A program made the position numbers and the translations under genes. From Sialis fuliginosa (lineage: Eukaryota > Arthropoda > Insecta > Megaloptera > Sialidae): a stretch of DNA of 64,000 nt. Shown here in pieces: positions 26,880 through 60,123 of this stretch. The stretch covers positions 6,262,001 to 6,326,000 of the forward strand of contig OY540815.1 of NCBI GenBank assembly GCA_961205875.1, given 5' to 3'. The notes under the pieces were generated by a model that was given only the letters and a program-made list of their open reading frames with translations, did no database searches and had not been told where the DNA came from. The number at the start of each line of letters is the position of its first letter. Within the stretch, counting starts at the first letter, position 1.

Positions 26880-27620
26880 CTACATTTGTTCCGACAGCCA
26901 AGCGGCGATTAAGGCCCTACTCTCTCCAGAGATAGGGTCACGATTGGTTGAGGAATGTCGGCAAACACTCACAAAACTCTCAACTGAGAACTATGTGAAG
27001 ATCCTTAGGTACCAGGCCATAGTGGAATCAAGGGTAATGAAGAAGCTGACGTTCTAGCGGTAGCTGAAGCGAATGAACCTTTAACAGGTCCAGAACCAGC
27101 CTTCGGAATACCCCCAAAAAACGTGAGGCACGAGATCTGGAACAATGTAACCGAGCGGTTTCAGCAATCTTGGACCTCTAGACAAAGACCTAGACAAGCG
27201 AGATCCTTTATTAAGGGCCTCTCGTCTAAGTCAACTAAATATCTTCTGAACTTAAACAGAAGACAGCTCAAAATCGTTACGGGTCTCCTAACAGGTCACG
27301 TGCGAATGAACAGCCATCTCCACACTATAGGCATAGCGCCTAACCCACAGTGTAGGAAATGTCAAACACAGGAGGAAACTTCTGAACACGTCCTTTGCAT
27401 TTGTACAGCACTTGCTGAGATAAGGAACAAACACCTTGGCTCCCCTTTTCTTGAGCCGAGAGACATTCAAGACATACCGATGAACAGGATTCTTTCCTTC
27501 GCGGAAACAACAGACCTGTTCAAAGAGTGAAGTCTTGGTAACCTCAAGGGGGCACAATGGGCCCTAGCGGCCTAAGTGCAGGAGACTCGCTCAACCCCCC
27601 GTTTATCTATCTATCTATCC
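26880..27620 (+). pseudogene. Broken RNase H / C-terminal fragment of a non-LTR retrotransposon
   Basis: Translation from about 26883 gives the RNase H signature SDSQAAIKAL. After a one-base frameshift near 27003-27012 the next frame gives PGHSGIKGNEEADVLA (the second acidic and His motif), then continues to a stop at 27528-27530 through a C-terminal CRKC..EHVLCIC cysteine motif. This layout is known from RNase H-bearing non-LTR elements of the Jockey/R1/LOA group. Only the last approximately 215 codons remain, with no reverse transcriptase, and the frame is broken, so it is a 5'-truncated dead copy. The (ATCT)n run at about 27604-27620 may be its original 3' tail. Confidence 0.8.
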
Positions 27621-47758: not shown

Positions 47759-48291
47759 TACACTCGTCAAAATCATTAAATTAATTTTTTGGTGCAATAT
47801 TCAAATAGCTGTAACTTAAGTAAAAATGATCGTAATGAAATTTTTCAAAAAGAAAATTAAAGCTGGAAATCTCTGCTTTAAGATTCTTTCAAAAAATTTT
47901 ATTTTCATTAGCAATTTAAAAAATTACAGGATAATAAAGGATGCGCCGGAAAATTTCAAATTTTTTTTACATTTTTAACAACGTGCACCGAGTGTAAAAA
48001 AAATTAAATGCTAGCTTGGATGTTCAGCTTTAAAATGCTTTTCTGTTTTTGTTGATTTTTTCAACAAGTTATTGAAGTTTTACATTCAACACACACTGCC
48101 AAAATTGCATTTTTTTCGGTGCACCATTTATTTGCTTTTAACTTTTAAAGATTTTTATAAAAATACATTTTTTTAAAGTCTTCAAGTAATGATTTCAAGC
48201 TTTATTTTCCATTTTGAAAAATTTCTATGCGATTTTTTTTACCAAACATTACAGCTATTTGAATATTGCACAATTTTTTTTGATGAGTACA
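47759..48291. mobile_element. Tc1-like MITE
   Basis: TACACTCGTCAAAA..GCAATATTCAAATAGCTGTA at the left is mirrored by TACAGCTATTTGAATATTGC..TTTTGATGAGTACA at the right. TA-rich flanks fit a TA target. Noncoding. Confidence 0.65.
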
Positions 48292-48780
48292 TAGTGCTAA
48301 TATTTTTAATATTTAAATAAAACTAGGCCAATCAATGTATAATGTTTATTTTAAAAAACATGTTTTTTTTAAATTATTATTTTTAGATAATCTAACATAA
48401 CTTTTAGTTTTAATTTAATTAAAATTCTAAATGAATTTTAATAAAAATGTCCTATTTTAATTTTGTTCTGTTTTTATATAGTCCATTATATTTGTGCAAT
48501 TTGTTTTTCTATTACAATATATTCCTTTTAAATAATGTGTTTTAATTTTAATCTATTCTATATATTCAAGACATTTTGTTGTTTCATTTCGTACAATTTG
48601 ATTAAATTTTTTACAAACAACTATTTTTATTCTATTTAAAACAAACAGTACTTTTAAATATACACAAAACCACATATTCTTCATGCACATTTTAAATTCA
48701 TTAAATATTTTTTTATTGTGTTTTCTTATTTCAGCCATTTTTATTTCTATAAGAAAAATAAAACCTGAAAAATAGATATT
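48292..48780. other. AT-rich 3' flank of Ir40a
   Basis: Includes the presumed Ir40a 3' UTR. The reverse-strand frame at 48553-48738 is low complexity. Nothing else was recognised. Confidence 0.4.
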
Positions 48781-51700
48781 TTAAATCGAGAAGTTTTGCA
48801 TTTTATAATTAATAATAATACCTGATACGATATATCCAGATATTAAAATATAAAAAGCTCCTTGAATCATAGATAAACTTATCGGTTTAGATTTTTGTTC
48901 TTCTGTCGTTTCTTGTTTATTTGGTTTTTCGTTCACTTTAATTTCAGTATTGTCATTGCTTGTTTCAAATAATTTTCTCTTACCTAATTTTTCATACTCT
49001 TCTTCAGTCATTTTTGTTAATATTCCTGCTTCAAATAATTTAATAATTCTGAAAATATTTAAATTGTAAAAAATATAAATTTAACATTACAAACACAGAA
49101 GAGAAAAAATAAAATTTTATTGAATTGTGAGGAAATTATTCAAATTACAATTAAAATTAGTGATTTTATTGAAATTTGGTATACATTTTATTATGTTTAC
49201 TTATTTAATATTTCAGTTATTTCAAAAATAACTTGATAAAAAAAAAATTTGACAAATTAACTCTCATTCTTTGAAGAATTCTAAGTTTTCCATTCATCTT
49301 TTTCATAATCCCAATTTGACGTTAAACCAGTTATAGGGTTCATTCGTAGATCAATTATACGTCTTAACTGAGCTTGTGTACGATCTTCATCAAACGATTC
49401 AGGATATGGTCCATAAAAACTAAACTTAAATCCCATCCACAACCAGAAACTGAATGATATGATAAGACATGCTGCCCCGATAACTTTTTTCCATTCTCCA
49501 GTCGATGCTTTCATTTCTGCAAAAGTTTGACAGAAAGATAGGCGATACAATGTTTTTTTCTCAATCAGACTTAGCTGCTTCCAATCGCATAACTCTTTAT
49601 CTTTTAACGGTTCAAATTCTGGCGTTATTTCTCGGAATCTGATAGACGGAAATGGATACTCTGGTTTATCTACATATATCAGTCTTCCATTTATACCATA
49701 TCCAACAATTTCACGACATCCTATTATAGTTCTTTCTATATCTGTTCCATATTTAGCCGAATTTCTTGGTACAAATGAAGTTAAACGTTTTAAAAGTCTG
49801 ATCACCATCTTTATACTATCATTAATTAGTTTTTAAACATATAAAAAGACAGTAATTTGAAAATGTCAAATAAGAAACAATCCATCAATTGTTTTAAACC
49901 GAAACTCGATTTCAAACAATGCTTTTAAAACGCGTGAACTTGATTGGTTAGTTTGAATTATAAATTTAAATTTTCCCGATAACAATTACAAAATGATAAT
50001 ACTATCAAAAATATATTAATCCACTGATATACTTAGTACTTACATTTTATTAAAATTTTCTATATAAGGACATCCGGTCTGAAAAGCTATCGCCGAATAT
50101 CCTGTATGTAATTTTTCACTCATATGAAAATGAGTAACGCCGAATCTTCTTGTATCAAAATATAATGTTTCTCTTCCTCCAATAACAGCTATTTTTCTAG
50201 AATTTCGAACCATTTGAATCCCTTCTTCAACAGAATTTACTAAATATTTTGTTTGTTTTTGCATTAGAAACCACAGTCGACCATAAATTCCTGTTCCATT
50301 CTAAAATAAATAAATACGCATTCAAAACAGGCACTATATCATTATATGAATCCTGCATTCATATTCATGCCTGCTGTGGGTGCGTACTGTACCGTAGCGT
50401 ATGTATTTATTCGTAAACCGTACCGGGTACCTGTATACCTGTGCTACATATATACTAGCTAAGAAAAATGCATTTGTACTAGAGCGTACATACTTGCATG
50501 GATAAATGCAAAAGTAATTGTAATAATAAACATTGTTTGACAACCCTAGTTTGAGGGACGCAGGTATTTTTTATTTCCATTTTAAGCCGGTATTCTAGAA
50601 TTTACAGCGCCGGCTTTAGGGGAGGGCGAACCAGGGCGACCGCCTGGGGCGCCAGGCCAGGTGGGGCGGCGCTTAATAGGGCATAAGTCTTAAAGTTAAT
50701 GGTGTAAGGCAGGGGTCACCAAACTTTTCGAGAAACGGGCTGGATTGAATTTTTTTTAAACATGGGGGGGCCGGACGAAAAATATTCTTGTTGAAATCCT
50801 ATTAGAACATTTATTTACATGTGCAATTAGCTATGTAAATAGAGTATATATCATTTATAATGGAAAATATCTATTCAAATGTAGATAAATACACATATTT
50901 ACATCAAATCCTTAAATTATATAAAATTAATATTTCTTTTATGTATAAAAAATATTTATATATAATAATCAGGGGCCGGATGAAAAACTTTGGAGGGCCG
51001 TAGTTTGGTGACCGCTGGTGTAAGGTATATTTAATATTATTTATTATATATTATTAATATTAAAAGTTGGAGTCTGTAGAATCGCGCCAAACTGAGATAT
51101 TATTTATTCAACTTATTTGTTCATTTATCAATTTTAATTGACATTTTCGGTGATTTATGAATATTTTTTAGGGGGAGAGAGGGCGGAAAAATAAATCTCG
51201 CCTAGAGCACGAGACTTGCTAATAGTATAGGAACCAGCTGCAAAATCGGTGTAGATTTAACAACCGTCTGCCGTTGTGGTTTTTTTGAAGTACTCACTCA
51301 GACAAAGCTCGGACGATGAGTCCGGTCCACTAGCTTGTAGGGATTTAATAGATAGGGCCCACGAAAAATACGCACAAAAAAATCACGTAACAACCGTTTG
51401 AATGTGACGGTTGCTTATAGTAGACCCCAATTAAAGATGTTTTGGATATACGGCATAAATTTTTGCGTAGGGGTTTAATTACAGGGGCCTCTCAAAATTT
51501 CGACCCAAAAAAATCAGATAACAACCGGACCAGACCTGGTGCAAAATGTTTATTTGGACGTATACTTAAATAAAAACATAATGGTAGAATTTTTTATGTA
51601 GGGACTTCGGTGCTATAAGGCCTACAAATGGCCAGAATTTGGCCCTAATCTTAAAAATGCTGTAAAATCTAAAATACGGAATGAAAATTTCTGCCGCGCG

Positions 51701-54700
51701 GTGTATACCTTTGTTATGAACTATAAAATAGATATATACCCATAGCAGAAGTTTTATCCATGCCATTCTTCACAGCCTCCCCCCCCCCCCCCCCCCCAAA
51801 CATTACATTAATCATAATATAAAAAATTTAAAAAACTAAAAAATTAAAATTAAAACTTCCTCTAGGGCGGAGCTGGTGGGGAATAGCATAAATAAAAACT
51901 TCTGCCATGGGTATATATCTATTTTATAGTTCATAACAAAGGTATATACCGCGCGGCAGAAATTTTCATTCGGTATTTTAGATTTTACAGCATTTTTAAG
52001 ATTAGGGCCAAATTCTAGCCATTTGTAGGCCTTATAGCACCGAAGTCCCTGTACATAAAAAATTCTGCCATTATGTTTTTATGTAAGTATACGTCCAAAT
52101 AAACATTTTGCACCAGGTCTGGTCCGGTTGTTATTTGATTTTTTTGGGTCGAAATTTTGAGGGGCCCCTGTAATTAAACCCCTACGCAAAAATTTCTGCC
52201 GTATATCCAAAGCATCTTTAATTGGGGTCTACTATAAGCAACCGTCACATTCAAACGGTTGTTACGTGATTTTTTTGTGCGTATTTTTCGTGGGCCCTAT
52301 CTATTAAATCCCTACAAGCTAGCGGACCGGACTCATCGTCGCAGCTTTGTCTGAGTGATTACTTCAAAAAAACCACAACGGCAGACGGTTGTTAAATCAA
52401 CACCGATTTTGCAGCTGGCTCCTATACTATAAGGCCGGCTCTGAGAATTTAGACTATATTATCCCAAATGAGGTTATTTCCTGTAGTCATTTCGTGAGAT
52501 TTATCTCAAAATCTACATCATATTTTATTGATTATATTTATGTTGTATTAATATACCTACTAAACGTTTATTTTATAGGAAAGTTAAAAAAACGGGGAAG
52601 ATTGATAAGCATTGTAAGAATTCTTTATCGTTAATATATTATATATTTATATTTTTGATATACCTAATTATTAATTTTATTATCAGTAATTAATACAAAC
52701 ATCCTTTTGGTGAATTGCATTCAATAAATATAAATGTTTAATTAATCATTTAACCTGTTTAACATTGATAAATTATTTTGTCAAGGTTAAATACGACATT
52801 GCTTTCAAAAGTTTCAAAAACTTATTTTAGATTATAGAATCTTTTGTTCTAATAATTTATTTGTTTTCTGTGTTATATATACTACCACTTTCAAATTTTA
52901 ATTTTAACTATTATATTTTACATATTGTTAATAATAGTTTATGTACTTTTTTTTGTGTGTAGGTACAACATGTAAAAAATAGTGTTTATTTACATAATTA
53001 CATATGGTACCTATCTAATTAAATGTTATCATTTAATAAAGAAATATTTAACAATAATTTTAGTAAGTAAATTAATAAATTTACTATACATAACAATTGA
53101 AAAGTGCAATAGGTAATAATGTATTAAAATAAATATATTCAATAATTTTATTCTTTACAGATGTATCAGTTATTGTTGAGAAAATATAATATTCAAATGA
53201 GTGTAAAATGAGAAAACATCAAACCGTTCCTAAATATGTATTTCGGCCAAACGTTTTATATTTTATAATTTGTTTTTCATTTATAAGTATCGCCACTCAT
53301 ATTTATTTCAGTTCGTATGGAAATTGTGTTACAGAAAAAGAACAATGGCCCGGTAAGTATAATATAAACAACATATAGTTTCTATACTAATAATAAATAT
53401 TATTTTCAGTCAAATTTTTACTACAGAATCCGAACTGCCACATCCCTTATTTAGATATTATGAATTCCGATATCATAGGTTATATAAAACCAGTATATAA
53501 TATATCTTGTTCGTCGAGAACTCCGTTAACATATGTTGAAATGAAAAATGGAGTACCTGTATTATATATAGACCATGTAGTGAAAGATCTAATTACTTTT
53601 CGAAATGATTTGACTTGTTGTTTTTCAATTGTTACTAGAGATCCAAATATACGTAACGATGATTTTTTTAAGTACGTACTTATTTATAATATTCAGATTA
53701 ATCATAAAACTGATTTTTAATTTTAATTTTCAGCATAACAGACTGCAAACGATTTAAAAAGCGCATTGTACTAAAAACAAGTTATGAATTCATAATAACC
53801 AAATGTTATCTTGGAGAACGATTAATTTATAGCAACGGTCATACAATCATACTTCCAAAACCCGAGATACTAAAACGTATGAAATTGTTTAAACTAAAAG
53901 ATACCTTGAGACCTCTTAGTGTTTTAATACTCGGCATTGATAGCGTATCAAGATCAAATTTCTACCGAAGCATGCCGCAGACTTCTATGTATCTAAAAAA
54001 AATTGGAATGATCGACTTAAAAGGGTATAATAAAATAGAAGACAACACATTTCCAAATCTCATGGCGATTTTAACAGGTAAAAATCTTACAACATCATAT
54101 AAAATATGCGATCCTAAATCTCCACCAAAACTTGATGATTGTAATATGTTGTGGCACGAATTTAAAAACAACGGTTATGTGACCGCATATGCTGAAGATG
54201 AGCCGACCATTTCTACTTTTAATTTCCAAAAAAATGGATTCACTAAATCCCCGACTGATTATTATTACAGACCGTATGCATTAGCGATGCAGGAACACTT
54301 AAAAATACAAAAAGATAATGATATGTCTTACTGTGTTGGGCCTATTCCCGGTGGAGAGAGAATATTAACGTACGCACAACAGTTTATAGAATCGTATAGA
54401 AATGATCCGTTTTTTGGCTTGTTCTGGATAAATTCATTTAGTCATAGTGATATTAACAGCATATCTCGTGTAGATTTAATGTTTAAGAAATGGTTCGAAG
54501 ATTTAAAACACTCGGAAGTATTTAATACATCGATGGTTATATTTTTAAGCGACCACGGCATGCGATTCGGAGACATAGTTGAAACCAGTGCGGGCTGGTT
54601 AGAAGAACGCTTACCGTTTATTCTCATATCACTTCCAAAATGGTTCATCAACAAATATCCTCAGAGTTATAAGAATTTAATTACGAATAGAAACCGTCTA

Positions 54701-57700
54701 ACTAATCCTTACGATTTACACATGACTTTACAAGACGTCCTTGTACATTCGAAACGTTTAAACACGCCGCCAGTTCAAAGTTCGGCATGTCCGAAATGTC
54801 ACAGTCTATTTAAGCCTGTCCGTTTTGAACGTTCCTGTGATGACGCTTCTATAGATATACATTGGTGCACTTGTTATAGTTTTGTAAAGAAGAACAAAGA
54901 TCAAAGTATCGTTAATTCGTGCGCTAAACACCTTGTAACTAAAATAAAACACTTGATTCATAATGATAATGATGCTGTACATCTTTGCACGGAACCGATA
55001 TTAAATAAAGTTGTAGATGCGAGAATATCCACGTTTAAAGTGAATGTAAATATAACATATTATGTGTTGATTATTGAAACGTTGCCAGGGAATGCAAAGT
55101 TTGAAGCGACAATACAACATAACAGCTCGGAAGTCGGTCAGAAAGGATTTCAGCTGAAAGGTACAATAAGTAGAATTAATATTTATCGTGAACAAAGTTT
55201 ATGTATTAGTGATTCGGTCCTGAAAAAGTATTGTTATTGTAAAGATCTGCTGTTGTAAGTTCAAATCTGACAAGGTAGTTATCTTGAGGCTCAAACACTT
55301 GGTTATTAATATAAAAAAATATAAAAATATATAATTTATACACATTTAATATTATCTTAGTTTAGATAACAATTTTTGAAGTTAAACTTCTTTAGTGGTA
55401 CTGAATCAAATTCAAAATATAGTGGTAGGGGAATAATGCAAGCGAAATGATGAATTGAATCTTTACATATTCGTTACAATTCATGACATTGAAATAAAAA
55501 AGTACGACTGAAGAACAGACAGCGCGTATGTTGCAACATCAATCTATATTATTATAAAAGTAGATCTTGTACAACTTCTAGGGAGTTTATCACTGTAAGA
55601 CTGAAACTCAAGTAAATTCGGGATTGAGGCACTTTTGCGCCCACCAATATAAATTTCCGAGATGTTCTGTCTTGGGTTTTCGCTGGCTGTATATTAAAAA
55701 ATTAAGGCCAAGAAAAATATATATATACATTTCTCTCTCCCAAAGGCTCATATATGTTTCTGCCTCAGGGATTCAAACAGTATAGTTACGCTACTGTTAA
55801 ACCATTAAGGTTAATAAATATTGTTATAGTTCAAATATATTCGATATCAAAATATATCTATATTTAATGCAAAATATTAAAACTTAATAAGTATTAATAT
55901 TTTGCATTAAATATAGATATAATATAATAATAATAATAATAGAGTATAATATACTCTATTTCATTTAAGAATACAGTGGTTGCCGGGGTTTTGACGGTAC
56001 GAATCGTGCATTTTACCGTCAAAAACCACTGCATTCTTAAATGAAATAGAGCAAGCTTGTCCAACCCGCGGCTCGCGGACCACATGCGGCACCGCGAGGA
56101 TAATTAAAAAAAAATAATAATAATTTTATAATAATAAACCTACATTGAAATTAGCTCAACTAAAAAAAAAAAAAGGGTCCTCAGTTATATTCTGGCTTGC
56201 GGTCCTTAGTAAATTGAGTTTATACTATGCGGCCAAGAAGGTTCAAAAGGTTGGACACCTATGAAATAGAGTATAATAAATTTATGACATCTATTTTAAA
56301 TGTTATTGCATATTAAATCTTGACAAAATTGTGATATATTAGTGATCCTATAATTCTATAATAATTAAAAATTATTTATTTTATAAATCACCTTTAATAT
56401 TAAGTATGTAGTCTTATTTGTAGTTTACAAATTGTTCCCAAACTTGGACCATTACTTAACTGTTTACAATTAGCATACGTACTTTTTACAAATTAAATTT
56501 AATTTAGTATTAATTTATACTTATAATTTGATATACAGTCACACTTCGAGTTACAGCTCTTTGACTACATTTATACTACCATTCCCTGAAGCTCCAGTCA
56601 GAGTACTCAATGTCAGTGAAAGTACTTGAAGCATCAACAACGTTTTGCTATTTTCAAAAGTACTTGAAGTAAGTACTTCAAGTATACTTTCCTTGTTAAA
56701 ATCAAGTATTACATTCAAAAAGCACAACTACTTTTTCCTATGTATTCTACATAAACGTTTTAGTATTTTAAATGTACTTGAAGTACAAGTACCAAGTATT
56801 CAGTAAAAGTACTTAAAATATCAAAAAATACTTTTTGCCATTTTTAGATGTAGTCAAAATAAGTACTTCAAGTATTTTACTTGTTAAAATCCAATAATAA
56901 ATTCACTTGTTACTATTTTTTTAAGTATTAAGTATTGCCAACTCTGGTTGCTGCATTTGCTTAAAAGTTACGTCTCTTTAGCAGCATGATTGGCTTCCAT
57001 TATATAAATATGATGTAACTTTGATGTATGACTGGTACATACAATTCTATTACTTTTAATTATACATATTGTATAATAATGTTTCCTTAAAGAATATATA
57101 CTTAATTTTTTAACGCACACTATTAATTCTTATTGTTTTATACTTATATGCTTTCTTATAATTGTTTATGTGTTAAAGATATAAAAATAATATTGTTTAT
57201 ATATATATTTATTGTTATCTCAAAACAATATATTTTTGTATCCATTAATTTAGTTTTATTAATTATTTCTCAAATCTGATCCTACCTCAAGGTTATTAAA
57301 CTATACAGGTTGTTTCATAGGGTAGTTTCACGCTATTGGTCGACGACTAGTGACGTAGCCAGTCGTCAAAATCCATGGAAACTACTAATTATTAACCAAT
57401 TATTAATAATTAATTCAAATTTTCAATTTGACAAGACGGCCAGTGACGTCACACCCACACCCCTCCCGCTCATTCCTCTCACCTAAATGTTTAGTTATGA
57501 GACAACTTGTATAGTTTAATAACCTTGATCCTACCTCTAATAATGTGTATGAAGAACTTTGACGCTCTACAAACAATTTGTATTTATAATTTATCATAGC
57601 TTGTTCTAATTGAGATAACGAAGTTATTGGTTTTTCTGAAAAAAAAAATTGTTTTAATATAATTTATATATTTTTACCAAAAACTTTGACTTGCCTTTAG

Positions 57701-59500
57701 CTGGCTTTGCTAATAATGAAGTTAGATTTGCTGAATAAACATCAGATATAACGTACGTAACTGAAATCGTTAGAATTGTAATAAATATACGTGCCTTAAT
57801 ACATTGACTGGGTAACCTTCCAGCTAGAAAAATATATACCATTTTTTATAATCTTAGATCTGTTATATATATTTTATAATTGTACATACCCTGTTTCATG
57901 AATATACCTGTAGTATACCAGACACAATTATAAAGTAATCTTTTCTGATGTTTGATTTTTTGTTTGGTCCGTTTATTCCATAATTTCGGAGTCGATATTA
58001 AAAAGTACAATACAGGCCCTGCTATTATTAATACTACTATTATTAGTGGCCACACCTATTAAATAAAATAACAAATCTTGGCTTTTGGATATAAATTAAT
58101 AAAACTTAAATTTACCTGCCACTGAAATGATCTAATCAATGCCAAAGCTTCATTTAATTGACTCGGCGAGTGTGTGACAAAGGCACCACTATCGCTGAGT
58201 GTAAAAATTGAAAATTCAATAGCTAAACTTCTTTCTAATGTAATACCAACATCGCCTAAGAAAAAATCAGCCTCCTAAAAACAATTCCTGACATTTTAAA
58301 TTGGTACTTTTTTTTAATATTTGAACTAAAATAATTAACTTTACCCGTCTTGAAATGAGGCCTAATATGCCTGTAAAAGTCCCGTTACTCATTATTGAAG
58401 AGCCTTGGCTATGGTCAGGTGGATCGAAGTATTCAAATCTATATAATAAAGCGAATATGTCTATTGTCTTAAAGGAATATTATTTTTGTTTATATTGCCT
58501 ACCTAAAATTAAGTTTTTCTGCTAAAACTTTTAACAATTTATGATCTCTACCTCCTTGGACTGTTATAGTACTGTCATTATCATACTTAATAAAATGCCA
58601 TGGTGGTTTCTAAAAAAAAATCAGATTTTGAACAACGGTTTAATAAAATATGATTTTTATAATTTACATGAACGACGGGAACTTGAAATATTCTTCCTTT
58701 AAAATCTGAATAAATTTTATCAGATGAAGGAAGTGTAGGGTACTGATTTAATGCCCCAATCCACCAGTTTACAAGTTTAAAATTATGCTTTCGGTGTGAC
58801 GTAGCTTGATTGTAATAAACCCTGTGACTACATTGAGAAATATTTTATCATGTTAAAACTACATACTTCATTAATGTTACTCACACATCTTGTTTTGGAT
58901 TTGTTATGATGACAATTCTCATTGATTCATGCATACTTCTTACAAATCTTCTACTGAATGATGTTTTTTCCCAGTAAAAAATATAGAGCAAATTACGTTT
59001 TATTAAATTTGCATCATATAACTGAAAATATTAATAGTTTCTTTAAAGATATGCAGAAAATTTAAAAAAATTACACTTGTTTTTACCATTAGAAGTATAT
59101 CTTCTGAATTCTCTTCATTACAAATAAACAAACAAGAACAAAGTGAATAAGTGTCTTTAGAATCATTCAAATGATTAAATAAATCTGTATATCCGTGACT
59201 TAGATTATAATTTTCTAAAGATATTTGTGATCTCTGTATTGTAATAAATATTTCGTTTAGTTTTTCTGTATCTAAAATAAATATCTTGTAGAAAAATTGA
59301 TAGACCATAATAATTAATAATAACTTACTGATAGATTCATCAAATCCAGTAATTAAATATTCTATAGGGATGCCTTTTATTATATCTTTTATGGCTAATG
59401 CCGTTGTATTGTTTTCATTTAGGTTTAAATCATTGAAGATTGTGAATTTTGCTTTAACAGTTAGTATTAAAACAAAAAAATATGCTGTAGTTTTCACCAT
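48781..59500 (-). CDS. Ir40a: Ionotropic receptor Ir40a, 12 exons
   Basis: Variant ionotropic glutamate receptor. In Drosophila Ir40a works with Ir25a/Ir93a in antennal neurons that sense dry air. Exons: 59500-59329, 59271-59087, 59021-58885, 58821-58668, 58609-58503, 58438-58345, 58274-58116, 58055-57890, 57823-57695, 57635-57535, 50300-50044 and 49048-48781. The frame is kept throughout, giving 642 codons. The start at 59500 gives a signal peptide (MVKTTAYFFVLILTVKA); an in-frame upstream ATG at 59596 does not. S1 contains PPWHF and GGRDHKLL; TM1 is WPLIIVVLIIAGPVLYF; the pore region ends at FMKQ; TM2 carries SANLTSLLA; S2 has GGRETLYF; TM3 is near the C-terminus. Intron 9 has a GC donor. 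Intron 10 (7.2 kb) and intron 11 (995 bp) each contain another gene. The Drosophila protein is longer, mostly in the TM1-TM2 loop. Confidence 0.93.
49281..49808 (-). CDS. COX4: Cytochrome c oxidase subunit 4, intronless, nested in Ir40a intron 11
   Basis: Nuclear-encoded subunit of respiratory complex IV in the mitochondrial inner membrane. 175 codons in one exon, start 49808, stop TAG 49281-49283. The N-terminus is basic and Ser-rich, as in a mitochondrial targeting peptide. Family signatures: GCREIVGYG, YPFPSIRFRE, LYRLSFCQTFAEM, STGEWKK, one membrane segment (IGAACLIISFSFWLWMG), and FDEDRTQAQLRRIIDLRMNP..GLTSNWDYE at the C-terminus. Length is close to insect COX4 (about 180). It lies wholly between Ir40a exons 11 and 12 on the same strand. 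Lack of introns plus location suggests a retrocopy, possibly a COX4-like paralogue. No poly-A tail was seen, so this is inference. Confidence 0.92.
   Translation of the reverse strand: MVIRLLKRLTSFVPRNSAKYGTDIERTIIGCREIVGYGINGRLIYVDKPEYPFPSIRFREITPEFEPLKDKELCDWKQLSLIEKKTLYRLSFCQTFAEMKASTGEWKKVIGAACLIISFSFWLWMGFKFSFYGPYPESFDEDRTQAQLRRIIDLRMNPITGLTSNWDYEKDEWKT
50710..51017. mobile_element. Nested hAT MITE with duplication GTGTAAGG
   Basis: Ends CAGGGGTCACCAAACTT and AGTTTGGTGACCGCTG are inverted. GTGTAAGG flanks both ends (50702-50709, 51018-51025). The related empty site at about 26076 contains this sequence once (as its complement, one base different). 308 bp. Confidence 0.92.
51223..52429. 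mobile_element. Nested 1.2-kb foldback with about 555-bp arms
   Basis: The left arm 51223-51778 and right arm about 51870-52429 are near-identical reverse complements. Outer ends are TAGTATAGGA and its complement. TAA flanks both ends (51220-51222, 52430-52432), and the empty relative at 25895 has it once. A spacer of about 90 bp includes a run of about 19 C. A 3-bp TWA duplication suggests PIF/Harbinger-type mobilisation. No coding capacity. As part of the Ir40a pre-mRNA it would fold into a long duplex. Confidence 0.9.
52452..53207 (+). other. Upstream region and 5' UTR of the DUF229 gene
   Basis: AT-rich. A pyrimidine-rich acceptor (TTCTTTACAG) ends at 53160, suggesting that the 5' UTR exon begins at 53161 and an earlier noncoding exon exists. 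An upstream ATG at 53197 opens a four-codon frame whose TGA overlaps the main start codon. Confidence 0.5.
53208..55258 (+). CDS. DUF229 family protein (alkaline-phosphatase/sulfatase fold), nested antisense in Ir40a
   Basis: Exons 53208-53352, 53410-53671 and 53734-55258, short GT-AG introns, frame preserved, 643 codons, a usual length for insect DUF229 proteins. Residues 15-35 are a membrane anchor (type II or uncleaved signal), followed by a Cys-bearing luminal domain. The catalytic-fold segment begins LSVLILGIDSVSRSNF, continues with FPNLMAILTG and WINSFSHSDIN, and has the metal-binding-like LSDHGMRFG. The C-terminal part is Cys-rich (SACPKCHSLF, CTCYSF). The position of the fold's nucleophile is Ser in the IDSVS motif. 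The substrate is unknown in the family; secretory-pathway location is inferred. It lies inside the 7.2-kb intron of Ir40a, opposite strand. Confidence 0.92.
55259..55953. other. 3' flank of the DUF229 gene with an AT-rich hairpin
   Basis: A candidate poly-A signal AATAAA is at about 55492. A near-perfect hairpin with arms of about 32 bp and a very short loop is at 55853-55920 (ATATCTATATTTAATGCAAA and complement). No gene was recognised. Confidence 0.5.
55954..56051. mobile_element. Short inverted-repeat element
   Basis: CTCTATTTCATTTAAGAAT and ATTCTTAAATGAAATAGAG are perfect inverted ends with an inner pair TTTTGACGGT/ACCGTCAAAA. The related sequence at 1163-1230 lacks the mirrored half. 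The right end is abutted by a hAT insertion. Confidence 0.7.
56052..56263. mobile_element. hAT MITE with duplication AAATAGAG
   Basis: Ends CAAGCTTGTCCAACC and GGTTGGACACCTATG are inverted near the tips. AAATAGAG flanks both ends (56044-56051, 56264-56271). 212 bp, noncoding, in Ir40a intron 10. Confidence 0.85.
56597..56945. mobile_element. Probable hAT relative with AGTACTTGAAG repeats
   Basis: Edges CAGAGTACTC and GCCAACTCTG match as CAGAG/CTCTG. The interior repeats AGTACTTGAAGT-like motifs in both orientations. No matching 8-bp duplication was found, so the limits are uncertain. Confidence 0.45.
57288..57527. mobile_element. Mutator-like MITE inserted on the Ir40a exon 10 splice donor
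   Basis: Ends CAAGGTTATTAAACTATACA and TGTATAGTTTAATAACCTTG are inverted. ATCCTACCT is present outside both ends (57279-57287, 57528-57536). A 9-bp duplication is typical of Mutator-like elements. Read on the minus strand it is AGGTAGGAT, which contains the last two exon bases and the GT donor of Ir40a exon 10. The donor is therefore present twice, 249 bp apart. Confidence 0.9.
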
Positions 59501-60123
59501 TTTACATATTATACACAAATGAAATGTAGTTGATGCTATCGTTGACAAGAAAAGTGGAATGACCTTTTCAAATATAATTGCAATTGTAAAACTCATCAGT
59601 ATGATATTTTATAAAGGGTAAAATAATTCATTATTGATGATATATCAAACGTATCATTACTAACTATTTATTATTGAATTTCTTAAACTGTTATCTTTTT
59701 TTAAAGTCCAATATTTAATAGAACTGTTAATGTTTTCTTTAAATAAATTTTTTTCGCAAAAAGGCCAATATAATACATGATACAATATAAAAAGCAATCG
59801 TTTTTTTTTATTTACTAACTATAGCTAGTCTGTTTTGAGAAGATTCACAGTATATACAAGGAAAAAGGAATAATTTCATATTTATTAATTCTTACTTAAT
59901 ACGTTCCTGTTTTCCTACAACTATCCAACGTATCCAAGATTCAAACCAAAAAGCTGTCAACAAATTTTAAGGTTATGATTTTAATGTATGAGTAAAAATA
60001 AACATTAACAAGTGCAATGTTTTAATGTGCATTAATTAAGTGTTAAAACATGCAAAAAAGTCAAACGAGCTGAATATTTTATTAGTTTACTGTAAACAAT
60101 GGTATTAACAGTCAAATAGCAAA
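59501..60123. promoter_or_regulatory. Shared intergenic region between divergent Ir40a and NDUFAF5
   Basis: 623 bp separate the two start codons, so both promoters should lie here. No TATA or other motif is convincing in the AT-rich sequence. A single monomer relic of the 42-kb array (ATTCTTACTTAATACGTTCC) lies at 59888-59907. Confidence 0.5.

Follow-up and report, generated by a model that had tools for sequence, protein, structure and literature searches.

The donor of intron 10 in an ionotropic-receptor-type gene is present twice in the 64-kb stretch of DNA analysed here (hereafter the window), and the two copies flank a 240-bp inverted-repeat element (MITE) at the end of exon 10. We consider it likely that this arrangement arose by insertion of the MITE across the splice site, which would have doubled the donor through the target-site duplication, and that splicing mostly uses the exon-proximal copy of the donor.

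The receptor gene

On the minus strand of the window, 13 exons could be joined into an open reading frame of 701 codons (2,103 coding bases without a stop), with the following structure.

59500-59329, 59271-59087, 59021-58885, 58827-58668, 58609-58503, 58438-58345, 58274-58116, 58055-57890, 57823-57695, minus strand: exons 1-9
57635-57535, minus strand: exon 10, 101 nt, ending in phase 0
50301-57534, minus strand: intron 10, 7,234 nt; contains the element and, on the opposite strand, a DUF229 ORF
50300-50044, minus strand: exon 11, phase 0, with acceptor ttttag|AATGGAACAGG; encodes the second part of the S2 lobe
49048-48822, minus strand: exon 12, open frame and splice signals
48764-48553, minus strand: exon 13 with the stop, open frame and splice signals

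The predicted protein matched the profiles Lig_chan (6.7e-16) and Lig_chan-Glu_bd (2.9e-10), and its best match among solved structures was a GluK5 chimera (1e-20). Ligand-binding halves S1 and S2 are arranged around an ion channel domain, and on these matches the predicted protein is a channel of the ionotropic-receptor/iGluR type. Exons 12 and 13 encode the last membrane segment and the C-terminus; neither the profile matches nor the GluK5 match extended to them, apart from the opening residues of exon 12. Exon 11 is not adjacent to exon 10, being 7,234 nt away from it. A truncated gene was considered when exon 11 was absent within 2 kb of exon 10, and was dropped after the ORF scan of the minus strand had found 50300-50044. 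The GluK5 alignment crosses the joint of exons 10 and 11 with a one-residue gap, and therefore no exon seems to have been lost between them.

The initial annotation of this DNA had named the gene Ir40a. The receptor type agrees with the matches above; the name itself is unconfirmed, and the short N-terminus argues against it, since IR21a, IR40a, IR64a and IR93a are described as having a long N-terminus of about 400 aa (PMC2924276), whereas the glutamate-binding domain begins at residue 212 of our model, which starts with a signal-peptide-like stretch (judged by eye) and could miss 5' exons. Other matches to exons 7-11 in the same genome were three, with E 0.004 or worse, among the eight candidates scored.

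It should be added that the donor of intron 9 (57695-57693, minus strand) is of the GC type (AAAG|GCAAGT), the sole non-GT donor in the gene model. The window also contains several other coding features. An intronless ORF for cytochrome c oxidase subunit IV (49284-49805, minus strand, 174 aa, COX4 E 7.9e-48) sits in receptor intron 11 on the same strand as the receptor. Its two relatives on contig C14, with 54% and 49% identity in the longer pieces, are each split into two separate matches, and the ORF is therefore probably an old retrocopy nested in the intron. The DUF229 (sulfatase-like) ORF in intron 10 occupies 53714-55258 on the plus strand (E 2.1e-138), and an ORF at 53397-53720 (plus strand) may be an exon preceding it. 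Furthermore, a possible retrotransposon remnant was seen at 27009-27527 (plus strand; zf-RVT 3.7e-4, below its cut-off).

The element at exon 10 and its target-site duplication

Two copies of the nine-base word ATCCTACCT are present in the window (57279-57287 and 57528-57536), against an expected count of 0.19; at least two occurrences were seen in 1 of 100 shuffles. The element fits exactly between both copies, as the initial annotation had described. Its inverted repeats measure 32-33 bp (arms 57287-57319 and 57496-57528, 94% complementary), each 33-nt arm including one base of the duplication. Exon 10 ends ..TTAGAG|gtaggatc on the gene strand, where each copy of the duplication reads AG|GTAGGAT, that is, the last two bases of exon 10 plus the donor, again as originally proposed.

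57288-57527, no strand assigned: non-autonomous inverted-repeat element (MITE); arms 94%, copies in the genome, 6.1% from consensus
57528-57536, minus strand: exon-proximal duplication copy, AG|GTAGGAT; the exon ends at 57535 and the intron starts at 57534
57279-57287, minus strand: distal duplication copy, AG|GTAGGAT; its use would end the exon at 57286 and start the intron at 57285

The donor pair had been given before as 57534 and 57286. Both sites are real positions of the duplicated word, and only the labelling needs correction, as it combined the first intron base of one donor with the last exon base of the other; like for like, the pair is 57534 and 57285.

The full direct repeat around the element is 12 bp long (TGATCCTACCTC) rather than 9, because bases at the element ends match the flanks, so that the window alone cannot choose between duplication lengths of 9, 10, 11 or 12. 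The length was set at 9 because copies of the family show 9, and in the window copy the lengths 7, 8, 10, 11 and 12 match at 0-4 bases only. The extension to 12 bp, past the duplication, might be taken to mean that the repeat arose by chance or is an older tandem repeat and no insertion scar. We regard this reading as hardly credible: the repeat adjoins both ends of the element exactly and at the family-wide length, the word is as rare in the window as stated above, and the extra 3 bp are explained by the element-end bases.

Relatives of the element in the genome

The insertion reading draws further on the relatives of the element, which were searched for in its own genome (392 Mb, 20 contigs). 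The search returned at least 40 scored copies (39 others and the window copy) of 216 first-look candidates, with 68 match pieces. The end repeat gave 82 + 83 genome matches at up to 3 mismatches, and its reversed control pattern 0 + 0. Allowing up to 9 mismatches and no gaps, both ends were recognisable in 15 of the 40 sequences; the other 25 lacked one end by this measure and were left out. Among these 15, the duplication matched at 8 or 9 of 9 bases in eight (the window copy and 7 of the 14 others): five were perfect, window copy included, and three more matched at 8 of 9.

For a wider set, 46 further regions were taken, among the matches listed, from the 165 end-repeat matches. After 55 of the 86 sequences had been dropped before counting, 31 had both ends, and 16 of these matched at 8-9 of 9, a count that leans high because the choice of ends took the duplication match into account, a bias of which the 15-sequence count is free. 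At lengths 7, 8, 10 and 11, the corresponding numbers were 0, 1, 0 and 0 of 31. Four longer relatives (L060-L063; 1,059-1,384 bp) have the same ends, and their ORFs reach at most 77 aa. Two of them, L061 (C3) and L062 (C10), have one target word on opposite strands and matching flanks, so that this part of the genome has probably been duplicated; in view of their common target, the 16 duplications correspond to about 15 insertions.

Against a consensus of 21 copies that includes it, the window copy shows a difference of 6.1%; against the consensus of the 20 others it has 14 substitutions, 6 of them private, over about 229 sites. Shortness, the lack of coding capacity, terminal inverted repeats, a constant 9-bp duplication and a high copy number are those of a MITE.

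The assignment of this MITE to a superfamily is less firm. The initial annotation had described it as Mutator-like, and its 9-bp duplication falls within the range of 8-10 bp described for MULEs (PMC5225508). Its inverted repeats of 32-33 bp fall short of the MULE-typical length of >100 bp, a shortness that does not strictly exclude a MULE, because 2 of 14 Aedes families have repeats of <60 bp (PMC5225508). The genome yielded 10 matches to MULE transposase, and in these, taken with about 5 kb per side, no end repeat of the MITE was detected at up to 8 mismatches. Duplication length is thus the one feature that speaks for the Mutator-like label, which stays unconfirmed. The families Muta1-14 of Aedes aegypti are similar to our MITE in their 8-9-bp duplications, with Muta1 described as having no apparent sequence preference, and in having short derivatives with common ends (PMC5225508). 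They differ from it in that 12 of the 14 have inverted repeats of >100 bp (PMC5225508), against 32 bp here, and in that the MITE had no transposase partner at the 10 MULE matches examined.

Position of the insertion

A preference of the family for splice-site words was considered and is not supported. AGGT or ACCT was found in the left duplication copy of 1 of the 16 copies with a clear duplication, namely the window copy, by which the case was found, and in 1,799 of the 63,992 9-mers of the window (2.8%). As the family shows no preference for AGGT, the hit at an exon end looks like chance, and the most reasonable reading of the position is a single random hit out of many insertions that selection could tolerate.

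The same counts bear on the idea of an introner-like family that targets splice-site words and becomes an intron or part of one. In introner families, the duplication is described as a possible source of one splice site or of both (PMC9860276), which would agree with a donor inside the duplication; splice words are however not repeated among the duplications of this family, the ascertained copy being the only one of the 16 with AGGT/ACCT, and the host intron is 7.2 kb long with its own acceptor far from the element, which argues that the element is no maker of new introns. We thus judge an introner-like origin to be very improbable and retain a chance insertion at an existing splice site.

Three donors and their products

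The proximal and distal donors both read GAG|GTAGGA and are the same over all nine U1-pairing positions, in accordance with the earlier claim of two identical donors 249 bp apart. The U1 duplex energy (ViennaRNA duplex) is -9.3 kcal/mol for each, the best of the 12 donors of the gene model. This two-donor picture was right for the duplicated sites and incomplete, as it had missed a third donor-like site of equal predicted strength inside the element (-9.5 versus -9.3 kcal/mol).

57477-57485, minus strand: third donor-like site, TAG|GTGAGA (-3..+6), inside the element; last exon base 57483
57415-57417, minus strand: in-frame TGA if the distal donor is used, 39 codons past exon 10

Such sites are rare: 18 of the 6,545 GT sites on both strands of the window, the three donors included, have -9.0 or better, a rate of 0.035 per 249 nt of one strand. 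The 7-mer CTCACCT (plus strand) is present in 2 of 21 family copies, the window copy included, where the consensus has CTCGCCC. Two of the three changes that made the third donor in the window copy are common to 6 and 3 other copies, correspondingly, and one is private; as the changes are mostly common to other copies, there is no sign that this donor arose under selection. It should also be added that one CpG decay in the MITE consensus already yields the GTGAG core.

The consequences for the predicted transcript differ between the three donors. Splicing from the proximal donor joins exon 10 to exon 11 in frame, and the distal donor retains 249 nt with an in-frame stop, both as foreseen in the initial annotation; the first joint is in phase 0 and leaves the protein of 701 aa open, and in the second case the stop comes after 39 codons (TGA 57417-57415). 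The internal donor at 57483 adds 52 nt, shifts the frame and leads to a stop after 41 codons. In the gene model, only the proximal donor gives the receptor.

Predicted RNA folding around the donors

The minimum-energy structure of a 336-nt stretch around the donors has z = -6.0, and none of 100 shuffles was equally stable. The predicted hairpin has at its foot a pair between proximal-donor base +7 and distal-donor base -2. In the minimum-energy structure, though not in the centroid, proximal-donor bases -3/-2 are also paired, in a helix of 2 bp. No match at gathering thresholds was returned by Rfam over 48000-60000.

The predicted cost of opening the 9-nt donor, over three window sizes, was 1.4-2.5 kcal/mol for the proximal donor, 4.8-5.2 for the distal donor and 1.4-3.0 for the empty site, so the distal donor costs about 3 kcal/mol more to open than the proximal one, which is predicted to be as accessible as the donor of the empty site. 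For the internal donor the cost was 2.5 kcal/mol. The proximal donor was the cheapest of the three in every window size tried, being equal to the internal one in the widest (2.47 vs 2.51 kcal/mol, a gap of 0.04).

The distal-minus-proximal difference was reached by 3 of 60 controls in which the whole element was shuffled and by 0 of 100 in which the exon-proximal arm was scrambled. Proximal opening was low against both controls (1.6 vs 4.1 +- 1.3 for whole-element shuffles, 1.4 vs 3.7 +- 1.4 for arm scrambles), whereas distal opening was ordinary against whole-element shuffles (4.8 vs 4.3 +- 1.8) and somewhat high against arm scrambles (4.9 vs 3.7 +- 0.6; 3 of 100 as high). Accordingly, masking of the distal donor was dropped as the main structural effect, since the controls show the larger effect to be the open proximal donor. 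The predictions suggest that the contrast between the donors comes mostly from that openness, masking of the distal donor being weaker and partial, and that pairing of the arms would mainly keep the element's own sequence off the proximal donor. All folding figures are equilibrium predictions for naked RNA, and U1 may bind before the hairpin forms.

Proposed course of events

On this basis, the MITE would have inserted where a cut staggered by 9 bp spanned the 5' splice site of intron 10, and repair of the stagger would have copied donor positions -2 to +7 to both sides of the element. Exon 10 would thereby keep its donor unchanged over -3..+6, and use of this donor would therefore remove the whole element with the intron and give an mRNA as from the empty site. 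The proximal donor may be favoured as the end of a normal 101-nt exon and as the donor transcribed first; pairing of the inverted repeats would keep element sequence away from it and engage distal-donor bases -3 and -2 at the foot of the stem. We infer from these features that the proximal donor is mainly used in RNA. The internal donor at 57483 may cause some mis-splicing and, as it has equal U1 strength and opens at 2.5 kcal/mol, clean use of the proximal donor is not guaranteed.

A more general version of this idea can be put forward tentatively, and we would rather expect it to fail than to hold. An element with strong inverted repeats and a 9-bp duplication across a donor would fold on itself, the upstream copy would stay as open as before, -3/-2 of the downstream copy would lie in the stem and splicing would fall back on the original exon end, a self-excusing geometry by which such insertions would outlive hairpin-less ones under selection.

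State of the gene after the insertion

Splicing could also be leaky, with the distal (57286) or internal (57483) donor used in a substantial share of transcripts, which would lower or regulate the receptor through truncated or decayed mRNA. Three near-equal donors (-9.3, -9.5 and -9.3) within 249 nt speak for this, given how few GT sites of the window reach -9.0, as does the low opening cost of the internal donor, and MITE-linked alternative 5' splice sites are described in mulberry (PMC6593561). Conversely, the reading frame is served by the proximal donor only, this donor is the easiest to open, though in the widest folding window its advantage over the internal one is just 0.04 kcal/mol, and the open frame suggests that the gene still works. 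We therefore see leaky splicing as a possible outcome and not the expected one, and hold to predominant use of the proximal donor.

The open frame was also weighed against a dying gene, in which the insertion impairs the receptor and the frame is open merely through the insertion's youth. The 9-bp duplication is still perfect, and at 2% neutral change, with 2.2 stops expected without constraint, the probability of no stop would still be 0.12. All 13 exons of the model are nevertheless open, with splice signals present, and the expectation rises to 3.3 stops at 3.1% change (P = 0.036) and to 6.6 at 6.1% (P = 0.001), figures by which the age of the insertion is only roughly gauged because the element may have diverged in part before it inserted here. 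A dying gene thus appears improbable, and the open frame mildly supports continued function after the insertion. It is plausible that the duplication let the gene survive a hit at its splice site.

Relation to known systems and significance

Many introners are described as DNA transposons, and introners are the closest known kind: they share with the present case a short non-autonomous DNA element, a 3-9-bp duplication that may hold splice bases, removal of the element by splicing and an mRNA length that is mostly kept (PMC9860276). In contrast to them, most likely a pre-existing intron was hit here and its donor doubled, no new intron was made, and the MITE family shows no bias to splice words. 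An intron gain in Drosophila resembles our case in that an insect transposon is spliced out beside its target-site duplications, and differs in that a retrotransposon made a new intron and five amino acids were added (PMC3296678). In mulberry, MITEs likewise lie at alternative donors of host genes; transcripts were measured there (PMC6593561), whereas the duplicated donor described here is known from DNA alone.

Among the literature matches listed, covered by titles and the starts of abstracts and with subscription literature thinly represented, there was no report of a duplication doubling the donor of an existing intron. Maize Ds cases come close to the donor-doubling arrangement. The present case thus adds an example to a principle already known; as an event it is what known biology would lead one to expect, and it is no new kind of mechanism.

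The locus is a clean natural case: within 249 nt, a single exon end has two donors that are identical at nine U1 positions and, between them, another site that is predicted to be equally strong. Junction counts at exon 10 would reveal which of several equal donors the spliceosome prefers according to their position and to RNA structure, and would also show whether target-site duplications let genes survive hits at their splice sites.
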